Translations under genes and position numbers: made by a program
In this document: in pieces, positions 24,690 through 56,778 of the stretch
How positions within the stretch are numbered: position 1 is the first letter of the stretch
Layout: the number at the start of each line of letters is the position of its first letter
The notes under the pieces: model-generated
Told to the model about the DNA's origin: nothing
What the model saw: only the letters and a program-made list of their open reading frames with translations
Databases searched by the model: none
Source of the DNA: a virus
DNA length: 56,778 nucleotides
Direction: 5' to 3' (one strand)
Virus record (IMG/VR): IMGVR_UViG_3300020027_000010
Span: 1-56,778 of that record

Positions 24690-25526
24690 ATGAGCTATAC
24701 CAAATTTGTCGTCAATTCTGGCACCGGCTATAGCACAGCCAATAACATACCTATAGCCATAGGGCTGCATATCCCAACTCCGAATCCAAGCGGCACAAAA
24801 CCTGCGCTATGGATATGGCTACACGGAATTGGCGAGCGTGGAGCCAGGGGGAATCTGGGCGCGGGAGGAATAGACATTGTCCCGAATTACGGTACTCCAA
24901 AATTGATCAGAGCCGCTGGAGCGGAGATTCCGGCATATTTCCCGCCGCAAGGGATCGCAACTATAAAACACGCAGTCATGTTTGCGCAGTGCTCCTCAGA
25001 GTATGGCACCTGGCCGATGGCCTACCCGGACACTTGCATCAACTATGCGTATGCAAATCTGGCAAACCAGGTTGATCTTAACAGGATTTACCTTATCGGA
25101 CATTCTCTGGGTGGCGGCGGTGTTCTTCAGGCATACGGCTTTCAGTCAATACATACTCGTGTGGCAGCCTTTTTTGCGATTGCTCCCGGCTACATCGCTG
25201 CAACAAATTATTTGCAAATGGCTCAGTGGGGAGCACCTCTCTATGTGTATCATCACATTGCTGATGCGCTCGCGCCTATCTCTGTCGCTGACACCTTCAT
25301 TCGCAATCTGAATGCGCAGCGGCCGGCGACGCCATCGCAGTATTACAGATTCAACGCAAACACAGGTTCCCTTGATGCTCACTCCTGGGTTCGGGAGGCA
25401 GTATCAATCGATCTTACCGAAAACAGAAACATTTCTCAGACCAACGGAGATCAATGGTTCACCTACCCCAACATTTACAAAGCAGGGCTTATATACTCAC
25501 TTCCACGATTGCAAAGAGTAGCGTAA
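24690..25526 (+). CDS. Alpha/beta hydrolase, esterase/deacetylase type
   Basis: 278 residues. The oxyanion loop WLHGIGERG (43-51), the nucleophile elbow GHSLGG with Ser139, a likely acid Asp192 (HHIADALAP) and a late His231 (DAHSW) make a complete alpha/beta-hydrolase triad. No signal peptide, so it is probably a virion enzyme or acts in the cytoplasm. It starts immediately after the second tailspike stop. Phage esterases of this place usually deacetylate capsule or O-antigen before or during adsorption; the substrate here is unknown. A second, different esterase is encoded at 27761. Confidence 0.8.
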   Translation: MSYTKFVVNSGTGYSTANNIPIAIGLHIPTPNPSGTKPALWIWLHGIGERGARGNLGAGGIDIVPNYGTPKLIRAAGAEIPAYFPPQGIATIKHAVMFAQCSSEYGTWPMAYPDTCINYAYANLANQVDLNRIYLIGHSLGGGGVLQAYGFQSIHTRVAAFFAIAPGYIAATNYLQMAQWGAPLYVYHHIADALAPISVADTFIRNLNAQRPATPSQYYRFNANTGSLDAHSWVREAVSIDLTENRNISQTNGDQWFTYPNIYKAGLIYSLPRLQRVA

Positions 25527-25529
25527 GAC

Positions 25530-26042
25530 ATGGAACAACAAATGAAAAAAAAACGCAGAATCCTGATTCTTGAAGATGATGGGGAAGATCGTGAACTGAT
25601 GAAAATAGCCTTGGAAAAAGCTGAGTATAAAGACATGGAAGACTTCTGTTTTTATGCCGAAAGCAAGGCCCTACTCGAAGCCATTGACGAGAATTCCGAA
25701 ACATTAGTTTTAGATAACATGCTTTCTGAAGGTGGTAAAACGGGCCTCGATGTGCTTAAAGAAATAAAAAGTACCCATCCGTTCAGGTTGTTCTATCCGA
25801 TTATTATAAGCGGTCATATCACAGCAACAGAGAGCATCCAGTACCAAAAGAATGGAGCGAAAGATATTATTGAAAAAGACCGCGAAGGCACGTACCTGGA
25901 ATTAATAGAGTCGATTAAAGAAGGAGAAACTTATATCCGAAGTGAAAAAGAGAAAGCTCAGATAATCCAAAACCTTGAAGATTGGGCCAACGACCTACCG
26001 GATAGGATTAAAATACTCAAGAATGACAAACGAGCAGATTGA
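25530..26042 (+). CDS. Stand-alone response-regulator receiver (CheY-like) protein
   Basis: 170 residues. Receiver features: acidic pair Asp16-Asp17 in ILILEDDGED, phospho-acceptor Asp62 in LVLDNML, switch Ser94 in IIISGH and Lys116 in GAKDIIEKD, in the right order and spacing. After residue 125 only a helical tail follows, with no DNA-binding domain. Starts 4 bases after the esterase and overlaps the next gene by 20 bases, so it is part of the late lysis operon. No histidine kinase gene is visible in the window. It could hijack a host phosphorelay; this is inference. Confidence 0.85.
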   Translation: MEQQMKKKRRILILEDDGEDRELMKIALEKAEYKDMEDFCFYAESKALLEAIDENSETLVLDNMLSEGGKTGLDVLKEIKSTHPFRLFYPIIISGHITATESIQYQKNGAKDIIEKDREGTYLELIESIKEGETYIRSEKEKAQIIQNLEDWANDLPDRIKILKNDKRAD

Positions 26043-26370
26043 AGGGCTGTGGCGGCTTGGTCTTATGGTTCTTCCTCCCGTGGCGGCCTCTACGATCTGG
26101 TTAGTTACTCGCACCGTTTCGAGCCGGGACAAAGAGATTGCTAAAACTGTCGCCCAAAAAGATATTGAGGTGGCAAAGATTCAGGAGACGTCCACAGGAG
26201 CGAAGGTTGTCAAGGAACTAGTCACCCAGTATCAGGAGTTGACTAAAAGTGGTGATGACCTGGATAAAAAGATCGAGGAGGTGCAGAAAGAGTTCAGAAA
26301 TCAAATATCAGGATTGGCTCAGGAGATCAGGAATTACACATTAAATATTATTCAGGTACTTAAAAAGTGA
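26023..26370 (+). CDS. Membrane protein with coiled coil, lysis-cassette candidate
   Basis: 115 residues from the ATG at 26023 (a longer in-frame start at 25975 would overlap the receiver gene by more). One membrane segment at about residues 10-28 (LGLMVLPPVAASTIWLVT) followed by a long coiled coil (EIAKTVAQKDIEVAKIQ...EVQKEFRNQ). Single membrane helix plus coiled coil is compatible with an i-spanin-like or holin-accessory protein. It sits at the head of the lysis cluster. Not assigned to a family. Confidence 0.6.
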   Translation: MTNEQIEGLWRLGLMVLPPVAASTIWLVTRTVSSRDKEIAKTVAQKDIEVAKIQETSTGAKVVKELVTQYQELTKSGDDLDKKIEEVQKEFRNQISGLAQEIRNYTLNIIQVLKK

Positions 26371-26376
26371 CACATC

Positions 26377-26631
26377 ATGAATTTCTTTGACACCATTTTC
26401 AAGTACACCCGTGGGATCCTGGCTTTCATCATCGTGATTTTGACTTTTGCTTTTCTCTTTGCGCTGTTGGCCGTTAATATCCCCGAAAACAATAAGGATA
26501 TCCTCAACATCAGCGTGGGCTTCGTGCTCGGGGTGATCGGCACTGTAGCATCCTACTACTTCGGGACCTCCAAGGATAAGAGCGATAGTGATCAAAGCAA
26601 GATTTTCCCCAAAGAGCCACCTAACCCATGA
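26377..26631 (+). CDS. Holin candidate
   Basis: 84 residues with two membrane helices, about 13-33 (ILAFIIVILTFAFLFALLA) and 44-63 (ISVGFVLGVIGTVASYYF), then a charged hydrophilic tail. The motif YYFGTSKDKS after the second helix is often seen in small phage holins. Holins form membrane holes that release the endolysin. It precedes spanin-like and amidase genes, overlapping the next by 4 bases. Confidence 0.7.
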   Translation: MNFFDTIFKYTRGILAFIIVILTFAFLFALLAVNIPENNKDILNISVGFVLGVIGTVASYYFGTSKDKSDSDQSKIFPKEPPNP

Positions 26632-26981
26632 TCAATATCAACAATATCAATTGGAAGGGCTGGCTGCCATGGATGCTGCTGGCTGTAGCGGTCACTGCGA
26701 TTCTGCTCTTTGTTTTTCGCAAAGTCCCGCTACCTGGTGAAGATCCCGCTTATGAATACCTGCAGCATCAAAATGACAGCCTGTTAAACAAAAACTCGGA
26801 AATCCAGCATGCCTTTGAAGCGAGGAAAAAAACCGTGGACAGCCTGGAATATGTCGTAGACACCATTGACCGAAGAATAAAAATTGTCAAAGAAACTTAT
26901 GAAAAGAAGATACCTGTTTTTGATTCTTATACTCCTGAGCAGCTGGAGCGCTACCTCACAGAGCGATATGCTAAACCCTGA
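26628..26981 (+). CDS. Inner-membrane spanin-like protein (Rz-type candidate)
   Basis: 117 residues: one N-terminal membrane helix (WLPWMLLAVAVTAILLFVF) and a periplasmic coiled coil (LQHQNDSLLNKNSEIQHAF...VKETYEKK). This is the shape of an i-spanin. The gene directly precedes and overlaps (83 bases) a signal-peptide protein, as Rz/Rz1 pairs do. It lies two genes before the amidase. The role is inferred from topology and arrangement, not sequence homology. Confidence 0.55.
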   Translation: MININNINWKGWLPWMLLAVAVTAILLFVFRKVPLPGEDPAYEYLQHQNDSLLNKNSEIQHAFEARKKTVDSLEYVVDTIDRRIKIVKETYEKKIPVFDSYTPEQLERYLTERYAKP

Positions 26982-27309
26982 GGTCAGGATTTCTCGCAGT
27001 GTGGCCATTGCCACGGTGAAGGATCTGGAACGCTATGACGGCCTCAAAATCGAGTATGACCTGCTGAGCAGGAAAGTAAATGAGATGGTCAAGATCATCC
27101 AGCAAAAGGATGATCAGATTCGTGAGGATCAGGACGTGATCGGCCGGCTGAACCTGGTCGTTAATAATCACGGCGCCATGCAGAAGATGCAGGAAACAAA
27201 GTTTCAGAATCTGCAGAAACAATACACCCGATCGGTGAGAGCAGGCAGGTTCAAAATAGTGCTCCTGGCTGGAGTTGCTGCCTTTGGAATCTATCAAACT
27301 TTTAAATAA
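26899..27309 (+). CDS. Overlapping envelope protein with N-terminal signal and C-terminal membrane helix
   Basis: 136 residues from the ATG at 26899; a TTG 15 bases upstream is a less likely start. The N-terminus (RRYLFLILILLSSWSATS) is a signal peptide without any Cys, so it is not an Rz1-type lipoprotein. The middle is coiled coil (DLLSRKVNEMVKIIQQKDDQI) and the end is a hydrophobic helix (KIVLLAGVAAFGIY). Topology resembles a spanin or a unimolecular spanin lacking the lipid anchor. It overlaps the preceding spanin-like gene and its stop shares a base with the amidase start. Confidence 0.55.
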   Translation: MKRRYLFLILILLSSWSATSQSDMLNPEVRISRSVAIATVKDLERYDGLKIEYDLLSRKVNEMVKIIQQKDDQIREDQDVIGRLNLVVNNHGAMQKMQETKFQNLQKQYTRSVRAGRFKIVLLAGVAAFGIYQTFK

Positions 27310-27758
27310 TGAGAACGATAAACCACATCATCCTTCACTGCACGGCCACACCACAGAGCACCACGATTCCCTCTATCCAGCGATACTGGAGAGAGGAACT
27401 CCACTGGAAGAATCCAGGTTATCACTTCATCATCAAGATCACCGGAGAGGCAGTGAACCTGCTGCCGATCGAGCAGGTATCAAACGGCGTTGCTGGCCAT
27501 AACCACGACAGTATCAACATCAGCTACATCGGAGGAATTGCACCTACAGGGAACCCATTGGACAATAGGACAACCCAGCAGGTCAACACCCAGATCGAGT
27601 TGGTCACGAAGTTCAAGAAAATGTTTCCCAACGCTGATGTGGTTGGCCACAGGGATTTCCTGACACCTGGTAAGCCAGGATGGAAATATTGCCCATCATT
27701 CGATGTGCGCAGCTGGTGGGAAAAAGTAAAATCATTTAATCAAAACAAAATAGGTTAA
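27309..27758 (+). CDS. N-acetylmuramoyl-L-alanine amidase (endolysin)
   Basis: 149 residues of the Amidase_2/T7-lysozyme-like family. Zinc-site residues are visible: His10 in ILHCTAT, His114 in VVGHRDF and Cys128 in YCPSFD, with GYHFII near residue 40. It cleaves the bond between muramic acid and L-alanine in peptidoglycan. It has no signal peptide and no separate cell-wall binding domain, so it likely depends on the holin. Coupled to the upstream gene by a one-base overlap, followed 2 bases later by a second hydrolase. Confidence 0.92.
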   Translation: MRTINHIILHCTATPQSTTIPSIQRYWREELHWKNPGYHFIIKITGEAVNLLPIEQVSNGVAGHNHDSINISYIGGIAPTGNPLDNRTTQQVNTQIELVTKFKKMFPNADVVGHRDFLTPGKPGWKYCPSFDVRSWWEKVKSFNQNKIG

Positions 27759-27760
27759 TC

Positions 27761-28816
27761 ATGAAAATAACGCTCAACGCCGAATCGATAACCATGCCTG
27801 CCTACCTGCGCGTGGTTCCCAACACATTTGACGAAAAGAAAAAATATCCCGTCTTGATTTTTCTGCATGGGATTGGTGAAAGCGGTGACGAAACCCTTGG
27901 ATTTGACGGACTCGGTAAGCTGGCAAAAAGGATGACCGAAAGCTGGATGTTTAAAGGGCTTACCGACAAGGTGGATCAAAAAAACTTTATCGCCTATTTC
28001 CCGCAGGCCGACAATTCTCCTCAGAGTATCTGGCAGAACAACGAATACGGGAGACTGCGGGACTTCGTAGAAAAAGAGCCATTTGTTGACACGGATCAGA
28101 TAGCGGTTGGAGGATTGTCGATGGGCGCCATTGGCACGCTGTCTATTCTGTATTCAGGTAATGATAACGCGATCCTGCGCAACTCCTGCTACCTTATTAT
28201 CTGTGGCGGGTACCGAACCGACGATGCAAGCAACATCAAGCTTGCAGAGGTAATCAACAGGCTTAACCTTCCAGTGTGGGCATGGTCTGGCGGCAAGGAT
28301 ACAGCAAGCCCAGGAAACCCTGTGGATGATTTCGTTTTGAACGGCAAGACTTACAAAGGCGTTGTTCGCAAAATATGGAGCCGAATCACTGCCCCCAACG
28401 CCAAGCTGTCCTTGTGGATGGACAAAGGCCACGACATCTGGGATGATGTGTTTGTCGGCGCGAAGCCGACAGAGGGCTTTACAGAGAGCGTAGAGGATTG
28501 GTCCGACTGGATGCTCAGACAAAGGAAAGGTAAGCCACAAGGTTTTAAAACAGTTGTTGATGCTCCTCCAGTCATCGAGCAGAAGCCGCCGGTAAAACCA
28601 CCCATCACCATCGTCTGGCCCGAGAGGATCCAGGTCGCCATGGCAAACCAGGGGCCGATAATTTACGGGCTTATGTGGAGCGATGGCTCAGCGGTTGAAC
28701 AAGTTGTAAAGGACAAGGTGAACACCTTCATCGACCTGGTGAATGAGAATGGCAAGGTGCGCGGATCCATATCCCATAAGGGTGGTGGAACGCAGGTGCT
28801 GGGACCGTATAAATAA
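27761..28816 (+). CDS. Second alpha/beta hydrolase with extra C-terminal domain
   Basis: 351 residues. FLHGIGESGD (34-43), nucleophile Ser120 in GLSMG, Asp180 (WSGGKDTASP) and His224 (KGHDIW) form a triad of the PHB-depolymerase/esterase type. Residues 255-351 are a Pro-rich linker and a small separate domain ending in GGGTQVLGPYK. It starts 2 bases after the endolysin, suggesting a part in lysis, or in removing ester groups from the cell surface. It is not similar enough in layout to the esterase at 24690 to call a recent duplicate. No signal peptide is seen. Confidence 0.75.
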   Translation: MKITLNAESITMPAYLRVVPNTFDEKKKYPVLIFLHGIGESGDETLGFDGLGKLAKRMTESWMFKGLTDKVDQKNFIAYFPQADNSPQSIWQNNEYGRLRDFVEKEPFVDTDQIAVGGLSMGAIGTLSILYSGNDNAILRNSCYLIICGGYRTDDASNIKLAEVINRLNLPVWAWSGGKDTASPGNPVDDFVLNGKTYKGVVRKIWSRITAPNAKLSLWMDKGHDIWDDVFVGAKPTEGFTESVEDWSDWMLRQRKGKPQGFKTVVDAPPVIEQKPPVKPPITIVWPERIQVAMANQGPIIYGLMWSDGSAVEQVVKDKVNTFIDLVNENGKVRGSISHKGGGTQVLGPYK

Positions 28817-28933: not shown

Positions 28934-29722
28934 TCACATCGGATTCAATTCACCCAGCGCCGGCAGCTTCGCCCACTCGTATGGTGCATCTTTATCCAGG
29001 CCATCTTCACGGAGTTTTGCCGTGGCAATGGTAGCCACCGGGAAGTACTGCAGATCTTCAGAAGGCATCTCATAAGCGAGGATCTCGGCATATCTTTCTT
29101 TGCTTAAGTCCTTTGACAAGAATTCCTTACTCATCTCCAGCGGTAGAAATAGCGGCATGCGCCACCGGTTTTCGCCATCGTTGTGAATGTTCCTCATCAC
29201 CTCGTTTGCAGCCCTGGTGATCATGGAGAAGGTGTACGTGGGAATGACCTCTCCGGTTTGTACGTCTGCTAATTCCGCTCTGGAATAAAGACCAGGGAGA
29301 AAGAATACAGTTTGGTCGCAGGGTTTTATAAAATATGGGACCTTCTTTTTCCAACCCTGAATGCCGCGGTGCTCATACGTCCCTGTAACCGGAATCAGAC
29401 ATCTTTTGTCCTGAATTTTATTCCAGTACACTTTTGGGTCGTTCAGGATCCGTTCCGACCGCGCATTGAGCATGAAGTTTCGATTCTTCATGTCCGGTTT
29501 CACTTTCCGGAAGTGTTCAATGATTCCCCACTCCATCAACTGCAGATGAATTTCGGTTTCATCGCGTGGGATGTAAAGAATCGGATGAGAAGCAAACACG
29601 CCAACCCCCTGCACATGGTCCATTGGTCCAATATCGTACTGAAGGTTGTCGTGTTCAAGCAGATAGGGGAAATATTCCCGAATCATTCTGGCTGACATTT
29701 TTCTGGCGACTCTATTGCACAT
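28934..29722 (-). CDS. SRAP-domain protein (HMCES/YedK-type)
   Basis: 262 residues. It starts Met-Cys, and Cys2 is the catalytic residue of SRAP proteins, which form a crosslink with abasic sites in single-stranded DNA and so protect them. Other family residues are visible: NARSE at 86-90, Glu117 in TGTYEHRG and a His in NIHNDGENRWRMP. The length is near the family norm. It is on the minus strand next to the integrase, divergent from 29758, with a 17-bp dyad between. SRAP genes in phages are uncommon; in bacteria they are often part of the SOS neighbourhood. Confidence 0.85.
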   Translation of the reverse strand: MCNRVARKMSARMIREYFPYLLEHDNLQYDIGPMDHVQGVGVFASHPILYIPRDETEIHLQLMEWGIIEHFRKVKPDMKNRNFMLNARSERILNDPKVYWNKIQDKRCLIPVTGTYEHRGIQGWKKKVPYFIKPCDQTVFFLPGLYSRAELADVQTGEVIPTYTFSMITRAANEVMRNIHNDGENRWRMPLFLPLEMSKEFLSKDLSKERYAEILAYEMPSEDLQYFPVATIATAKLREDGLDKDAPYEWAKLPALGELNPM

Positions 29723-29735
29723 GGGTCGAATTTAA

Positions 29736-29752
29736 GAACTTTTCATAAGTTC
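29736..29752. promoter_or_regulatory. Perfect 17-bp dyad between divergent genes
   Basis: GAACTT-N5-AAGTTC in the 35-base space between the SRAP gene (minus) and the 80-residue gene (plus). It is well placed to be an operator for both. It contains GAAC and GTTC half-sites, as LexA boxes do, but with a different spacing. Confidence 0.4.
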
Positions 29753-29757
29753 GCCTT

Positions 29758-30000
29758 ATGCACCCTGCACCCATTCCAATCAGCTACAAGGACTTCGCCG
29801 GTACTTTAACCACTGGCCATCAGGCTCCTACCGCTTACGTTGTGATGCGTGGGAATAGAGTACAAGGACAGTTCAACCTGATGCTGGATGGATGGCATTA
29901 TTATCCCAATGACAAGGGCTATCGAGATGATGGATTTGAACCGTACCTCATAGAATTAGTAACTGAGGGGATCGCTAAAAATCCGGGGACAGAGCAATGA
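29758..30000 (+). CDS. Small hypothetical protein beside SRAP and integrase
   Basis: 80 residues, beta-rich (AYVVMRGNRVQGQFNLMLDGWHYYP), acidic at the end, with no membrane helix. Its last bases overlap the end of the integrase gene on the other strand by 26 bases. Divergent from the SRAP gene. No family recognised. Confidence 0.5.
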   Translation: MHPAPIPISYKDFAGTLTTGHQAPTAYVVMRGNRVQGQFNLMLDGWHYYPNDKGYRDDGFEPYLIELVTEGIAKNPGTEQ

Positions 30001-31261
30001 TCTGTTTGTGATGGATCTCCTTGAGCTTGGTGATGTACTTCATCGTCATGAATTTACTGGTGTGGCCGTACATTTCCTTCAGGGCTTCCAGGTCGATGCC
30101 GGCCATGATCTTGTCATCACCACCGGTGTGCTTGGCTGCATAAAGGTGTTTTTTGATCTGCAGTGTGTCGATCACTACTTTTTTCCACAGCTTGGTGACC
30201 GTATCCCGTTTGATCCTGGTCATGGAGGGCCGGAAATATTTCTCATGAAAGGCGCCATGTCCTTTTGTCGATGACCCCGCATTCCCGCGGCCGGGAGAGA
30301 AAGGGCTGCCAAAGATGTAGCACCCCGGTTGGTGGTCATGCTCCAGCCATTCCCTGAGCAGGAGAAAAAGTGAGTCGACCAGCGGAATCAACCTGATGCC
30401 TTTGGTCTTCGAGTTATCTCTATCCGCATCAGGATTCAGTGTAATCACTTTGGTGGCCATGTTGATATCACTCACACGCAGCGCCAACACCTCATTTGGA
30501 CGCATGCCCGTGTGATAGATCATCATGAGGTACACGAAGAATCCATAATTATGGATGAAGAGGTGTTCCCGGATCCTTTTCTTTTCCTCATCAGTGTAAG
30601 GCAAAAACTTCCTGGTCTCTGTCACGGGCAGCTCCTTGATCCTGGAGGCAGGGTTTCCAGTGATCACCTCATATTGTTCCAGCCTGGCCAGGACGGCCCT
30701 GAAGTATCCCATGTGTTTATTGAATGCTTTGTTGGACCATTTGTAAGTCTGGCGGCAGTGATCAAGCAGATACTTGATATGTTTACGCTTGATGACATCG
30801 ATCTGCAGGGAAGCGAAATCAAATTGCGAGGGCGAGCCAGTGATCAGAACAGCAAGGGATGCCTTCATGATCCTGTTCGCTGAATTTCTATAATTGTGCA
30901 GGGTCCGGGGAGCTGCTTCACACTTTGATAGTGCAAAGGTCACCGCATCCCGAAAAGTCATCTTGGAGAGCTCATTGATATCACCCAGAGGGTCATGCGA
31001 TACTTCAGGGAACTTCCCGGTGATCGGATTCCATCCCTGTCTTAGTGAGGTCCGTATCGCTTCACACATCGCCCTGGCTTCCTTCAGCCTTTCCCCGAAA
31101 GATCTAATCTCATTCAGATTCCGGCGAATCAGAAATTGCTTTTGCTTTCCGCTATCCGTGTTGAAGAAGCGAAAGTTGATGGACCACTTCCGGCTCATGT
31201 CGGCCGGCTTGGGATCCTTGGGGCAAATCTGAGGATCGGAAAATGGTCGGAATCTTTGCAT
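29975..31261 (-). CDS. int: Tyrosine recombinase (integrase)
   Basis: 428 residues. N-terminal arm-binding and SAM-like core-binding regions lead to a catalytic domain with Arg254 (HTGMRPNEV), His400 (YGHTS) and the nucleophile Tyr409 (MTMKYI). In box II the usual His-x-x-Arg is Tyr374-Ala-Ala-Lys377 followed by His378-Thr; Tyr at the first place is familiar in Bacteroidota recombinases, but Lys for Arg is less usual. It inserts and excises the prophage. Direct GTTAAAC repeats just upstream (31271-31485) are likely its binding sites. Confidence 0.93.
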   Translation of the reverse strand: MQRFRPFSDPQICPKDPKPADMSRKWSINFRFFNTDSGKQKQFLIRRNLNEIRSFGERLKEARAMCEAIRTSLRQGWNPITGKFPEVSHDPLGDINELSKMTFRDAVTFALSKCEAAPRTLHNYRNSANRIMKASLAVLITGSPSQFDFASLQIDVIKRKHIKYLLDHCRQTYKWSNKAFNKHMGYFRAVLARLEQYEVITGNPASRIKELPVTETRKFLPYTDEEKKRIREHLFIHNYGFFVYLMMIYHTGMRPNEVLALRVSDINMATKVITLNPDADRDNSKTKGIRLIPLVDSLFLLLREWLEHDHQPGCYIFGSPFSPGRGNAGSSTKGHGAFHEKYFRPSMTRIKRDTVTKLWKKVVIDTLQIKKHLYAAKHTGGDDKIMAGIDLEALKEMYGHTSKFMTMKYITKLKEIHHKQIIALSPDF

Positions 31262-45971: not shown

Positions 45972-46281
45972 CCCTTCCCTTCAATGTTCGGTTTGCGGCC
46001 AATGGAAAAGATTGGTTGACAAAGAAACTGGAATGCAACGATTTTATTCCTGCTGTTTTTATGAAGGAATTGAAATAGTTCATACCAAACAAATATGCAC
46101 TGACTGTTGTGAGGCCGGATGCCCGGACAAGGCAGCGTATTTATCTGAGCCCCAACCAGGGAAGCCGGAACCTGAAGCTAATCATGTCGGAACTTTCCAT
46201 TTCGACGATACCGATACAGGTTCCGGGACTTTTGCGCATCAAGCAAAAGTAATTTCCGGGCAACCAGAAGGGCAAGGCTAA
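45958..46281 (+). CDS. Small Cys-rich zinc-binding protein
   Basis: 107 residues from the ATG at 45958. CSVCGQW near residue 10 and ICTDCCEAGC near 46 give two Cys clusters likely to bind zinc. The C-terminal third is acidic and disordered-looking (DDTDTGSGTF). It overlaps the previous gene by 14 bases and ends tail-to-tail with the minus-strand DUF3606 gene. Confidence 0.55.
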   Translation: MRQTNPSLQCSVCGQWKRLVDKETGMQRFYSCCFYEGIEIVHTKQICTDCCEAGCPDKAAYLSEPQPGKPEPEANHVGTFHFDDTDTGSGTFAHQAKVISGQPEGQG

Positions 46282-46457
46282 TGCGTCTTTAGCCACACCT
46301 TCACATCCTTGACCATTGGGCCAACTGCTTTGACTGCTTCTTTGAGTTTGGCTTCAGTGCAGCCAAGTTTTTGGGACCAGTCGCGAAGTTCCCAGGGTTG
46401 ATTCACATTAATGCGGATATCATCTTGCTTGCCGGTGTTTGAAAGGTCGTCTGCCAT
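46278..46457 (-). CDS. DUF3606 family protein
   Basis: 59 residues read from the minus strand. The pattern WELRDWSQKLGCTEAKLKEA followed by VKAVGPMVKDVKVWLK is the DUF3606 family signature (a short helical domain ending in a Val-Gly-x-Val-x-x-Leu-Lys-like segment). The start overlaps the end of the methyltransferase by 38 bases, so it is the last gene of that operon. Function of the family is unknown. Confidence 0.75.
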   Translation of the reverse strand: MADDLSNTGKQDDIRINVNQPWELRDWSQKLGCTEAKLKEAVKAVGPMVKDVKVWLKTH

Positions 46458-47076
46458 AATCGTGAGGTTTCTCCGAATTTACCAAATCCTGTGAAAAAAG
46501 TGTGGATATTTCAGAAGGTGCAATCAGCCTGAGCCACCTCTTCCAATTACACTGAAAGGAATCCCAGTTGATAACCGGACTGTCCGATAGCGCTCCAACA
46601 AATCCAGGATCTCTCCACACCACAGTGCACCCATTATCAAAATCCACGGTGCGAAAATCAATGCCTGCGTATTCTCTCAGTGTGGAAGCGAATTTATATA
46701 CGTCCCCCAGCCATCGCCCTGCCTTATCCCTTGGCACATGGGTCAGCAGTTCACTTTCCGGATTGGTATCATGGATGAGGATCCGCCCACCCGGCTGCAA
46801 CGCTGCCAAACTATTTTCAAAATCCCGCTTCACCTGGTCAGCATGATGAAGGCCATCTATGAAAATTAAATCATACTTCAACACATTGATCTTAAAGAAC
46901 TCATCCGAGGTACCTTGATAATTCGCTTGAGCTGCCGGGTTAGGGTCTACTCCGATCTTAAAGCGGACATTGATCTTGTCAAAATTGGTTTGCCGGTTGC
47001 TCACGCCTATCTCCAGGTAGGACATGGCACCAATCTCGGCAGCCAGATGATTCAGTAAATCAGTATGGTTGTTCAT
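46420..47076 (-). CDS. SAM-dependent methyltransferase (class I, Methyltransf_24-like)
   Basis: 218 residues. Motif I YLEIGVSNRQ at about 20-29, an acidic loop VDPNP near residue 43 and DLIFIDGLHHADQV near 69 define a Rossmann methyltransferase. Small size and DGLHHADQV are typical of sugar- or metabolite-methylating enzymes. Overlaps 47073 by 4 bases, in one operon with three glycosyltransferase-like genes, so it probably methylates a glycan. No DNA-methylase motif (NPPY/DPPY) is present. Confidence 0.75.
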   Translation of the reverse strand: MNNHTDLLNHLAAEIGAMSYLEIGVSNRQTNFDKINVRFKIGVDPNPAAQANYQGTSDEFFKINVLKYDLIFIDGLHHADQVKRDFENSLAALQPGGRILIHDTNPESELLTHVPRDKAGRWLGDVYKFASTLREYAGIDFRTVDFDNGCTVVWRDPGFVGALSDSPVINWDSFQCNWKRWLRLIAPSEISTLFSQDLVNSEKPHDYGRRPFKHRQAR

Positions 47077-47753
47077 AACAGTTTGAGTTTTTTATAGTGT
47101 TCCAGTCTTGCCTTACGTTTATCAGTGGCCGCCAGGTGAGGTACATGAAGGAACTCATGCCGGCAGGTGTAATCCCAATTAGTGAGGTGGGTGATGGGAT
47201 ATTTCCAGTTAGCATATGCATAGCTGATCTGGTCACGGTAGCAACCAATGAGCAATTCCTGGTACCACAATTCCGCAAACTGGATGGTTTCCTCAGTCTT
47301 CTCCCTCATCATGATCCCGGATGCCGCCATTCCATTGTGTGGAGGCAACCCCAGTGCGCGGTATAATTCCACCTGCTTTCGGATCACGCTCTCCTTATCC
47401 CTTTTATTGCGGATACAGGCCTCAGCTTCCTTGTACACGCAATCACGTTTGGGATGTTGCAGCAACGTCATCGGAGAGCGAAATCGCTTCATCCATTCGT
47501 CAAGGTCGCAGTTGATAATAAAACTTGCATCAACCCATATACTGCAATGATCTTCAATGAAAAGATGGAACATGATCTTGTAAAGCTTCGAGGTACGTCG
47601 CGGGCTGCCGACATGCGGAGACTTGACTATTTCCCATACTCTACTCATCAGGTCCTGATCGGTGAAGCAGACATACCTCCACCCTGGGGTGACCACCAAT
47701 GGTTCCTTCAAATCATCGTACGCTCCAAAAATTGCGGTGTAAATAGTGGGCAT
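47073..47753 (-). CDS. Glycosyltransferase-like protein (DUF616/TOD1-type)
   Basis: 226 residues. IYTAIFGAYDDL at 4-15, YVCFTDQDL near 27 and SIWVDASF near 71 are the pattern of DUF616-like glycosyltransferases. The WVDAS acid is the likely metal/sugar-nucleotide site. Overlaps both neighbours (4 bases and 1 base) in the minus-strand cassette. Confidence 0.7.
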   Translation of the reverse strand: MPTIYTAIFGAYDDLKEPLVVTPGWRYVCFTDQDLMSRVWEIVKSPHVGSPRRTSKLYKIMFHLFIEDHCSIWVDASFIINCDLDEWMKRFRSPMTLLQHPKRDCVYKEAEACIRNKRDKESVIRKQVELYRALGLPPHNGMAASGIMMREKTEETIQFAELWYQELLIGCYRDQISYAYANWKYPITHLTNWDYTCRHEFLHVPHLAATDKRKARLEHYKKLKLL

Positions 47754-48289
47754 TAGATCAAATGGCTTTTATCGTGATGGCCCTGCAAAAGCCGATAACC
47801 ATGCCACACCATCAAACCATCCATTCTGAGAATTTGATAGTTCGCAGCTTTCAGTCTTCGCCAGTAATCAGTATCAATGCCCAAACACTTACCGGTCTGG
47901 GCAAATGGAACATGGCGCCACACTTTCTTACTGATCAGCATCAGAAAGCCGCTCACATTGGAATGCACTTCCGTGGTCCGGTAAAGGAATTCCTTCATGC
48001 GTTCGGCTGTCAGCATATGGGAACGCATGTCTGAGTCCTCGCTGATTACCTTACCCACCAGCTGGGGACTGGACGGATGGATCCTGTTGGTGTAACAGGT
48101 TAGCATGCCGGCATGGGGAAAACGAATGGCATAGTCATGCAGGATCTTACCGGCATCAGGAGTCAGCAGCTGAACATCGTAATCCATCAGGCATGCCCAA
48201 TCGCCATCATCCACCATTCTCATGGTTTCATTGTACGCTCTACCCAGGTTCTTGTCCAGCGCATAAGGGATCATGATGTTAACCTTCAT
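47753..48289 (-). CDS. GT-A fold glycosyltransferase (short)
   Basis: 178 residues. NLGRAYNETMRMV near residue 14 and CLMDYDVQLL near 33 form the sugar-nucleotide site, with Asp-x-Asp as DYD, and GIDTDYWRRL near 148 is a typical acceptor/catalytic loop. Shorter than most GT2 enzymes and without membrane helices. Start overlaps the end of the first gene of the operon by 11 bases. Confidence 0.7.
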   Translation of the reverse strand: MKVNIMIPYALDKNLGRAYNETMRMVDDGDWACLMDYDVQLLTPDAGKILHDYAIRFPHAGMLTCYTNRIHPSSPQLVGKVISEDSDMRSHMLTAERMKEFLYRTTEVHSNVSGFLMLISKKVWRHVPFAQTGKCLGIDTDYWRRLKAANYQILRMDGLMVWHGYRLLQGHHDKSHLI

Positions 48290-48980
48290 ACATGGATTTA
48301 TCGGGGTAAAGCATTTGCAGAAGTATCCGGAAGTCTGGAGTAAAACCCTGATCGGCCACAGAGAAGTAAGGGCGATCCTTTAACATCGAAAACAGCTCAT
48401 CCACACTGTGCTGCTTATTGATTTTAAGATCTGGATAATACTCTCCCTCAATTCCATTCATGTTGCAGTACAGCGATTTGATACAGAAACCATTCTTCTG
48501 GTACCAGGGAGCAGTGCTCACAGACCGAAGGAACCAATCCTTTTTGTAGACGATCGGGCAATGTGTGTCGAAGTTGTTGCCTGTCCTGGTGATGCCCAGC
48601 GTATTGGCCAGCGTCTTGACATAGTTATCATTCACCTTCCTGTTCGAAAGGGATTCCTGCAGAGAGCATTTGTAGTGATAAGTATCTGGGGCGAACGGAT
48701 CCAGAAGGAAGTGATCATCATTAAAAAACAGGAACTCGTCACTTACCCGTTTGTCCCGGCAAGCCATATCGATCTTGCGGAAGATGTTGGCCTCCTTTTG
48801 TTCGCGGGAGTCATTGTCTGAAGCCGCAAGGTGAATGACATTCTTTAGAAAAGCAGGTTTTTGGCCTACGATAAACACATTTTCAACGTCATTCACGTAC
48901 TGCTCGATACTTCTTAAACAGTACCTGAGTTCCAAATCTTGGTGTAAACTGCCTTTTCCGAGTGGAATGACGACATCCAT
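48279..48980 (-). CDS. Stealth/capsular sugar-phosphotransferase-like glycosyltransferase
   Basis: 233 residues. FLFFNDDHFLLDPF near 82-95 and NFDTHCPIVYKKDWF near 136-150 resemble the conserved regions CR2 and CR3 of Stealth-type transferases, and MDVVIPLGKG opens the fold. First gene of the minus-strand cassette; its start lies 73 bases from the divergent terminase operon. Confidence 0.7.
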   Translation of the reverse strand: MDVVIPLGKGSLHQDLELRYCLRSIEQYVNDVENVFIVGQKPAFLKNVIHLAASDNDSREQKEANIFRKIDMACRDKRVSDEFLFFNDDHFLLDPFAPDTYHYKCSLQESLSNRKVNDNYVKTLANTLGITRTGNNFDTHCPIVYKKDWFLRSVSTAPWYQKNGFCIKSLYCNMNGIEGEYYPDLKINKQHSVDELFSMLKDRPYFSVADQGFTPDFRILLQMLYPDKSMYEG

Positions 48981-48997
48981 GAATCAAAAATGCACTA

Positions 48998-49032
48998 TTT
49001 GATACAAATTATCTCAAATAAATTACATTTGA
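48998..49032 (+). promoter_or_regulatory. Possible late promoter before terminase
   Basis: TTTG (48998-49001), a 22-base gap and TACATTTG (49024-49031) match the Bacteroidota TTTG-N19-21-TAnnTTTG form apart from one extra base. A dyad TCAAAT/ATTTGA (49014-49019, 49027-49032) overlaps the downstream box and could bind a regulator. Confidence 0.45.
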
Positions 49033-49053
49033 TTGCGCACTTTACGCTTTACA

Positions 49054-49551
49054 ATGGCACGACTTAAAAGGAAAGACCCCCGCAATCGCAAGAAACAGCA
49101 GACAGAATTTCTGGAAAAGCTGGAGAAACTGGCAAATGTCACTCAGGCATGCAGATTTGCTAAAGTGTCGCGCCGGACTATCTACAATTGGCTCGACACA
49201 GACCCTGACTTCAAAGTGAAATATGATGAATCAGTAAAGATTGCTGTGGACCTGCTGGAGGACGAAGCTGTTCGCCGGGCATATGCGGGAACGAAGGAAC
49301 CTGTTTTCCAGGGTGGAAAGAAAGTTGGGACCATCACCAAATATTCCGACACGCTGCTGATCTTTTTACTCAAGAAAAGGAAGCCAGACATTTACAAAGA
49401 TGTGATCCACACAGAAGTGAGCGCTCCCGGTGGTGGTCCGGTTCAAACAGAATCAGTGAACACCGTGGTTCTCTCCAATGTGGATTACGGCAAACTTCCG
49501 ACGGCCATCCTGGATGAAATACTCAAAGCCCGCATCGAGGTGCAAGATTAA
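49054..49551 (+). CDS. terS: Small terminase subunit
   Basis: 165 residues from the ATG at 49054. N-terminal HTH at about 24-50 (KLANVTQACRFAKVSRRTIYNWL), then helices and a C-terminal tail. It directly precedes the large terminase (next base). TerS recognises the phage packaging site. A TTG at 49033 is a possible but unlikely start. Confidence 0.85.
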   Translation: MARLKRKDPRNRKKQQTEFLEKLEKLANVTQACRFAKVSRRTIYNWLDTDPDFKVKYDESVKIAVDLLEDEAVRRAYAGTKEPVFQGGKKVGTITKYSDTLLIFLLKKRKPDIYKDVIHTEVSAPGGGPVQTESVNTVVLSNVDYGKLPTAILDEILKARIEVQD

Positions 49552-51033
49552 ATGACTCAGCCACTCTACCTGGATGCCGAGAAGGCAGCTGCAGAGAGAT
49601 GCAAGCGGGAAGGTGGACTCGCATTTTTCGTAAAAGAGTTTTGGGATATCATAGTTCCTAACCCATTGGTGTGGAACTGGCACATGCAGGTTCTCTGCGA
49701 TGAGATCCAGGAGTGCGATGAGCGGGTCTTCAAGAGATTACCCAAATTCCACGACCTGGTGGTGAATGTGCCTCCTGGTACCTCGAAGACAAAAATCCTT
49801 TCCATCTTATCAACGGCATGGGAATTCGCCCGCATGCCTGGCATCAAGGTATTCGTAGGATCTTATTCCGACAGTGCTGTGTCAGGGATAGCTGACGAGA
49901 TCCGGATGGTAATGAAATCGCCTAAGTATCAACTGTGGTTTCCTCACACCCGGATCCGGAAGGACAAAGATTCGCTGCACAACTTCAGGACCACGGCCAA
50001 TGGAGAATTCTATGCATTCACCGTGGGAGGTACACTTACCTCCAAGCATGCTGATATCCTGAAGATCGATGATCCGCTCAACCCTAAGGAAGCAGCATCA
50101 GAAGCATTACTGGAGTCTACAAATCACTTCTTCAGTAAGACACTGCCCACACGTAAGGTCGATAAGAAGGTCACACCCATCTACCTGATCATGCAACGCC
50201 TGGCTGTCAATGATCCCAGTGGAGTGATGCTGGAAAAGAAAGGCAAGGGTGTCAGGCACATCTGTTTACCAGGTGAGCTTTCCAAACATGTGAGCCCTGC
50301 TGAATATGCTTTGAACTACACCAATGGTCTGCTGGATCATCTCAGGCTCGATACCAAGGACCTCGCAGAATTAAAAATAGATCTGGGCCCTGATGGCTAC
50401 GCCGGCCAGATCATGCAGACACCGGTTCCTGAAGGCGGTCTCATCTGGAAGGACACTTACTTCACCATCGTTCCAGATTATGACTTTCCGGATCCCAAGT
50501 GGGCAGGCGTCGAGGCCTATGGAACAGACTGGGATACTGCTTACACAAAGGACGAGGTGAATGCAGCCTCAGCATTCATCACCTCATTCAGGTACCGGCG
50601 TAAGATCTACCTGGACCAGTTTGATTTCCGTTGGCTGGAATTCCCTGAGATGATCAACTGGATGAAACTACAGGTTGCCCCGCATTACATTGAGAAAAAA
50701 GCATCAGGGAAATCAGCGAAGCAGACACTTACCCGCTATGGCGTGATAGCCATTGAGGTACCAGTGCCAGGTGGCGCTGATAAGATCGCCCGCGCAAAGA
50801 TGGCCACACCTGTCGGAGCTGCCGGCATGCTGTGCATCAGAAGATCTATCGCTGAACGGTTCATGAATGATTCCCGGCAAGGCGTTTTATTCTTTCCCAA
50901 AGGAATGTATGCCGACGTGGCCGACGTCTTGGCTCAGGTTGTTGCCAGGCATAAAGGCGGAGGTACCAGGGTTATGGGTTCCGAGTCTGAGCAGGAGGAT
51001 GCTTTTGATCCGCTGGAGGAGTTGGACTTTTGA
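49552..51033 (+). CDS. terL: Large terminase subunit
   Basis: 493 residues. ATPase: PPGTSKT at 74-80 with a Ser where Walker A often has Gly, Walker B ILKIDD near 169-174. Nuclease: GTDWDTAY near 323 supplies the first acid, with later acids. It powers DNA packaging and cuts the concatemer. The minus-strand moron ends only 3 bases after its stop. Confidence 0.93.
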   Translation: MTQPLYLDAEKAAAERCKREGGLAFFVKEFWDIIVPNPLVWNWHMQVLCDEIQECDERVFKRLPKFHDLVVNVPPGTSKTKILSILSTAWEFARMPGIKVFVGSYSDSAVSGIADEIRMVMKSPKYQLWFPHTRIRKDKDSLHNFRTTANGEFYAFTVGGTLTSKHADILKIDDPLNPKEAASEALLESTNHFFSKTLPTRKVDKKVTPIYLIMQRLAVNDPSGVMLEKKGKGVRHICLPGELSKHVSPAEYALNYTNGLLDHLRLDTKDLAELKIDLGPDGYAGQIMQTPVPEGGLIWKDTYFTIVPDYDFPDPKWAGVEAYGTDWDTAYTKDEVNAASAFITSFRYRRKIYLDQFDFRWLEFPEMINWMKLQVAPHYIEKKASGKSAKQTLTRYGVIAIEVPVPGGADKIARAKMATPVGAAGMLCIRRSIAERFMNDSRQGVLFFPKGMYADVADVLAQVVARHKGGGTRVMGSESEQEDAFDPLEELDF

Positions 51034-56480: not shown

Positions 56481-56778
56481 TGGGAATAAGAATGTTAATG
56501 AACGGTTTTAAAAGGGCTGGGGTATCCCCGGTTCTTGCTGACGGTAACACTGTCGGGTGGTACAAAGCTGATGATCTGGCTACAATAACCAAAGACGGAT
56601 CTAACAAGGTATCTCAGTGGAATGACTTCTTAGGATCAGGTAGAAATCTAACCGCAGGCAATCCGGATTTCACTCCTACGTGGAGCGCAACAGGGATATC
56701 GTTTGACGGAGCGTACAATTATATGGCGGCGACATTCACCCTTGTTCAGCCAGAGTTTGTGTATATGGTGGCGAGCAT
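56480..56778 (+). CDS. N-terminal half of jelly-roll (LamG-like) tail protein, truncated by window end
   Basis: 99 complete codons from the ATG that shares a base with the preceding fibre stop. GWYKADDLATITKDGSNKV and WNDFLGSGRNL, then ATGISFDGAYNYMA, are the typical start of Bacteroidota-phage jelly-roll domains. The C-terminal half appears at 3-392. If the genome is circular the join needs a base number of 2 modulo 3 to restore frame. Confidence 0.7.
   Translation, partial: MGIRMLMNGFKRAGVSPVLADGNTVGWYKADDLATITKDGSNKVSQWNDFLGSGRNLTAGNPDFTPTWSATGISFDGAYNYMAATFTLVQPEFVYMVAS

Follow-up and report, generated by a model that had tools for sequence, protein, structure and literature searches.

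To our knowledge, the glycosylation of virions has been demonstrated in few phages, mainly mycobacterial ones. According to two articles that refer to this work, the virions of Che8 and Corndog are glycosylated on the capsid and the tail tube (Freeman 2023, via PMC12363180, PMC11600133). One of these two articles describes, for cluster O phages, three tandem glycosyltransferase genes located downstream of an O-methyltransferase gene. The Che8 record shows that gp108-110 correspond to a GT2 fused to a Methyltransf_24/TylF domain, a GT2-like protein and a GT25 protein. The locus considered here, like those of Che8 and Corndog, combines tandem phage sugar transferases with an O-methyltransferase. 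It was found in a window that corresponds to a complete IMG/VR virus record of 56,778 bases. We consider, with a probability of about 0.5, that its first four genes (P0001-P0004) constitute a soluble cassette that would assemble a short methylated glycan on virion proteins.

Five overlapping ORFs, all carried by the reverse strand and each starting with ATG, occupy positions 46278-48980, exactly where the original prediction had placed them. P0001 (48279..48980, 233 aa) is the first gene of the cassette and is followed by P0002 (47753..48289, 178 aa), P0003 (47073..47753, 226 aa), P0004 (46420..47076, 218 aa) and P0005 (46278..46457, 59 aa), the successive overlaps being 11, 1, 4 and 38 bases. 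The first four ORFs are genes rather than chance frames, since they have homologues in other phages (identity up to 45-53%) and since the longest stop-free run reaches 233 codons, compared with a maximum of 203 in 300 shuffles of the region. The enzyme classes initially proposed (three glycosyltransferase or Stealth-like proteins, one SAM methyltransferase and a DUF3606 protein) agree with the Pfam and PHROG matches. The orientation of the cassette, opposite to that of the flanking modules, was also correctly predicted. On one side, its immediate neighbours are terS and terL (49054..51033, + strand; starts at 49054 and 49552), from which it is separated by a divergent intergenic region of 73 bases (48981..49053). 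The other flank, up to 46281, carries replication and small genes on the + strand (helicase, replication initiator, Holliday junction resolvase).

The divergent region includes a perfect TTG-N22-TACATTTG match to the Bacteroidota promoter pattern TTG-N22-TAnnTTTG (48999-49031, + strand), oriented toward terS; the whole record holds six matches to this pattern on both strands. No equally good motif oriented toward the cassette was found in 48981..49053, and scans for sigma-70 promoters and terminators gave results at about shuffle level. Joined to the similarity of TerL, whose nearest relatives belong to the Cellulophaga phage phi18:1 group (48% identity), the pattern match preceding terS makes a Bacteroidota host likely. 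Scans of viral contigs and genomes with TerL retrieved only relatives at 31% identity, and hence neither a host genome nor a sister phage.

Other features of the record deserve mention. According to Pfam, a SRAP peptidase and a tyrosine integrase are encoded on the - strand at 28934-31261, which points to a temperate phage. A response-regulator receiver domain and two alpha/beta-hydrolase-like proteins are found close to an amidase (24690-28816), an odd company for lysis genes, and a right-handed beta-helix protein (392-2362) is a possible tail spike or depolymerase. The reading frame left open at the right end (56500-56778) apparently resumes at the left end (1-392), although not in the same frame, which would suit a nearly complete circular map from which a base or so is missing; no terminal repeat of at least 10 bases was detected in it.

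P0001 matches the Pfam family Stealth_CR2 (1e-10; 42.2 bits, above the curated cut-off of 39.4). Its AlphaFold2 (AF2) model is very confident (pLDDT 96.5), and Foldseek comparison of this model with solved structures gives CpsY as the best match (8j2n, 5e-11) and GNPTAB, the GlcNAc-1-phosphotransferase, from 6e-10. In the same way, the family profile matches GNPTAB (5.5e-14) and CpsY (5.7e-7), and aligns with the GNPTAB motifs ELRYSLRS, NDD and H-x-P. Seven residues (E17, R23, D88, D89, H140, P142 and Y171) are invariant among 40 aligned sequences. These predicted fold matches, profile matches and invariant motif residues identify P0001 as a minimal Stealth enzyme. It shares with the GNPTAB catalytic domain, CpsY and capsule polymerases a common fold, CR2/CR3-like motifs and a conserved C-terminal E, but differs from them by its size (just 233 aa), its stand-alone organisation, its phage location and an aligned identity of only about 15%. 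Stealth motifs are carried by hexose-1-phosphate transferase polymerases (PMC5974469), and membership of this family implies that P0001 would transfer a sugar-1-phosphate. Considering the predicted sugar-1-phosphate-transferase fold, one linkage in the glycan may be a phosphodiester.

The two partner transferases belong to other families. P0002, a compact GT2-like glycosyltransferase, matches phrog_14179 (glycosyltransferase, 4e-23) and, under the Pfam cut-off, Glyco_tranf_2_3 (0.0014); its DXD motif (D36, D38), D139 and H163 are invariant in all seven aligned sequences. P0003 is a TOD1_MUCI70 (DUF616) glycosyltransferase according to Pfam (2e-20). In Cellulophaga phage phi12:1, gp40 is a fusion of a P0003-like and a P0002-like domain, and phrog_26101 matches both, which supports a joint action of P0002 and P0003. 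Weak PDB matches of P0002 to a phosphotriesterase and of P0003 to MIF4G were taken as chance.

It should be emphasized that relatives of P0004 are labelled as DNA methyltransferases in PHROGs (phrog_27561), in GenBank and in a published article (PMC11946311). We consider this label to be wrong for the family. P0004 matches Methyltransf_24 (7e-10) and is read as a class I SAM O-methyltransferase, and its AF2 model (pLDDT 90.9) has the predicted fold of a cation-dependent O-methyltransferase. The 50 best Foldseek matches among solved structures are O-methyltransferases and their relatives, including MeT1 of Mycobacterium hassiacum (6g80), with no DNA methyltransferase among them. Furthermore, the conserved motif of the family is F-I-D-G-L-H, which is neither DPPY-like nor PC. 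Among the matches listed, the neighbours of this family are glycosyltransferases, GDP-mannose dehydratases and DegT-type enzymes, which argues for its belonging to glycan pathways. If so, the habit of naming these proteins DNA methylases would have to be corrected. The protein annotated as a DNA methylase in phi12:1, gp39 (L002:7534-8001), is a shortened relative of P0004 (155 aa); a portion of the SAM-binding N-terminal region is missing from it, and it may be degenerate.

The fifth gene was predicted to be part of the cassette, and this is the point on which the prediction has to be revised: four genes are accompanied by a probable passenger. P0005 matches DUF3606 (9e-20) and resembles a protein of the P2-like phage R18C. 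DUF3606 is absent from each of 16 related records, and no copy occurs in the cassette loci among the matches listed, so that it was discarded as a conserved member. Its 38-base overlap with P0004 is due to a C-terminal tail of the latter that is absent from aligned homologues and poorly modelled. P0005 is therefore best read as a passenger.

Looking for the cassette in other phages, as had been proposed, required alignments: when P0003 and P0001 were used as single-sequence queries against viral contigs, nothing was retrieved. Alignment-based scans of the viral contigs gave 62 Stealth loci, 18 TOD1-type loci and 354 methyltransferase loci, of which the best 80 were kept. At least three of the four families occur together in at least 28 pooled loci which, merged by hand on contig name into 18 records, represent at least 18 distinct viral contigs. 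P0003 is followed by P0004 in at least 15 non-redundant loci, 10 of these 15 having the identical 4-base overlap; the pairs P0004 then P0001 and P0001/P0002 are also recurrent among the matches listed. The gene families, the predicted folds of P0001 and P0004 and the conservation of the genes as a set are established here. As judged from sequence, the four genes are a real, recurrent phage glycan cassette, and the enzyme families together with their recurrence support the initial proposal that they build and methylate a short glycan.

Islands related to the cassette also encode sugar-donor genes (GDP-mannose dehydratase, DegT-type enzymes). In five of them (L022, L028, L112, L161 and L164), a gene resembling GDP-mannose 4,6-dehydratase is accompanied by one for a protein similar to DegT-type aminotransferases but unusually small (196-241 aa); these phages may encode a pathway for an aminosugar donor. 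No gene for sugar-donor synthesis was seen among the ORFs scanned in the present record, which suggests that the cassette would use host nucleotide sugars.

The location of the relatives is suggestive only of a virion target. In phi12:1, the methyltransferase and the fused glycosyltransferase lie between the portal/minor capsid and the prohead protease/major capsid genes. A relative directly follows the MCP gene in L031 and, according to identities read from sequence, others are found between portal-like and minor-head-like proteins (L043) or within the head-tail region (L025). Four relatives directly adjoin terL (L164, L121, L088, L115). TerL is over-represented among the immediate neighbours of Stealth homologues (8 of 81): among 80 distal genes its count is about 1 at most, since it does not figure in the 25 families shown (Fisher p ~0.03 on this cautious basis). 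In this comparison, a handful of neighbours were included manually and the rows are not completely independent of each other. In the 18 records, the cassette is no closer to portal, MCP or TerL than under uniform placement (Fisher p = 0.50), so that location is not strong evidence; in some relatives with larger genomes (L112, L161, L163, L172), it lies at least 17 kb from the portal. In the present phage, the late genes are read from the other strand, so that late co-expression of the cassette is not implied.

The reactions catalysed and the order in which they occur are inferred from these data, as are the donor sugars and the choice of the virion as target, for which the odds are about even. 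Using a nucleotide sugar of the host as donor, P0001 would place a sugar-1-phosphate on an acceptor. Further sugars would then be added by P0003 and P0002, and P0004 would use SAM to methylate, and so cap, a hydroxyl group of a sugar. The short methylated glycan would be placed on head or tail proteins in the cytoplasm, during particle assembly, and could alter the way in which the particle adsorbs or is recognized, or how stable it is. In a bolder and rather doubtful version, several tailed-phage lineages would carry a dedicated protein phosphoglycosylation system in which the minimal Stealth enzyme primes Ser/Thr of virion proteins and its partners extend and cap the chain. The attachment of sugar-1-phosphate to protein Ser/Thr is a modification known chiefly from eukaryotes.

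The main rival is lysogenic conversion, in which a moron expressed from the prophage would modify a surface glycan of the host (capsule, LPS/LOS or glycoprotein) and block superinfection or adsorption. This is a real possibility, albeit a less probable one: the phage is probably temperate, as it encodes a tyrosine integrase (29975-31261), the cassette lies on a strand of its own between modules, and its relatives in L112 and L161 adjoin integrase-like genes. Furthermore, Stealth relatives build capsule polymers of bacterial hosts (PMC5974469), and the authors of the phi18:1 paper named LPS modification as an option. However, serotype conversion by gtrABC involves a membrane flippase and a membrane-bound bactoprenol transferase, whereas nothing of this kind accompanies the cassette, whose five proteins look soluble, with no membrane segment detected by hydropathy. 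This fits a cytoplasmic acceptor and speaks against a gtr-type surface conversion. The homologous pair located inside the head module of phi12:1/phi18:1, phages not known to be temperate, also argues against a prophage function. The same solubility would suit enzymes that act, in the infected cell, on proteins of the host cytoplasm or on a soluble metabolite, and sequence fixes no target; this is nevertheless unlikely, as no precedent was found and the gene composition fits a type of cassette tied to virion modification.

Virus-encoded transferases can also glycosylate DNA, as reported (Pyle 2024, via PMC12619734), and the DNA methyltransferase labels given to P0004 relatives by PHROGs and GenBank would agree with a hypermodification of phage bases in which P0004 methylates DNA. 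This reading is very improbable given the O-methyltransferase fold matches of P0004 and the sugar-pathway genes that surround its family. The record contains no C5-methylase or thymidylate-synthase family (the Tet_JBP search had no working control), and the Pfam scans made of other ORFs revealed no DNA-hypermodification gene. Homologues acting as nucleotide-modifying enzymes, which would have contradicted the original prediction, were looked for and, as far as tested, none was found.

If glycosylation of virion proteins by P0001-P0004 is confirmed, virion glycosylation would extend to further phages, and the related genes of culturable Cellulophaga phages would provide a test system. P0001 would also serve as a model of very small size for the Stealth fold, which is found in the human enzyme of lysosomal targeting as well.

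The glycan island of Synechococcus phage S-SCSM1 includes a P0003 homologue amid transferases and methyltransferases, but comprises about a dozen genes, mainly from other families. The Cellulophaga phages phi12:1/phi18:1 (Helsingorvirus), the closest TerL relatives of this phage, possess the homologous methyltransferase and the P0003/P0002-like fusion; they differ by the 155-aa size of the methyltransferase, by the position of these genes, which belong to the head module and are carried by the strand of the late genes, and by the lack of any Stealth gene seen next to them. With mycobacteriophage Che8 and cluster O (Corndog), the cassette shares a set of small tandem proteins made of three sugar transferases and one O-methyltransferase, and the methyltransferase domain of Che8 belongs to the same Pfam family as P0004 (PF13578). 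By contrast, the host phylum differs and the Che8 transferases come from other families (GT2, GT25) with no Stealth member. The hhalign comparison of the cassette profiles with single Che8 sequences, a weak test, detected no homology (probability below 1% for two transferase pairs). The cassette would thus work like the Che8 system without demonstrated common descent, and its Stealth-type sugar-phosphate transferase would be new relative to Che8, the best-studied example, which lacks this type of enzyme.
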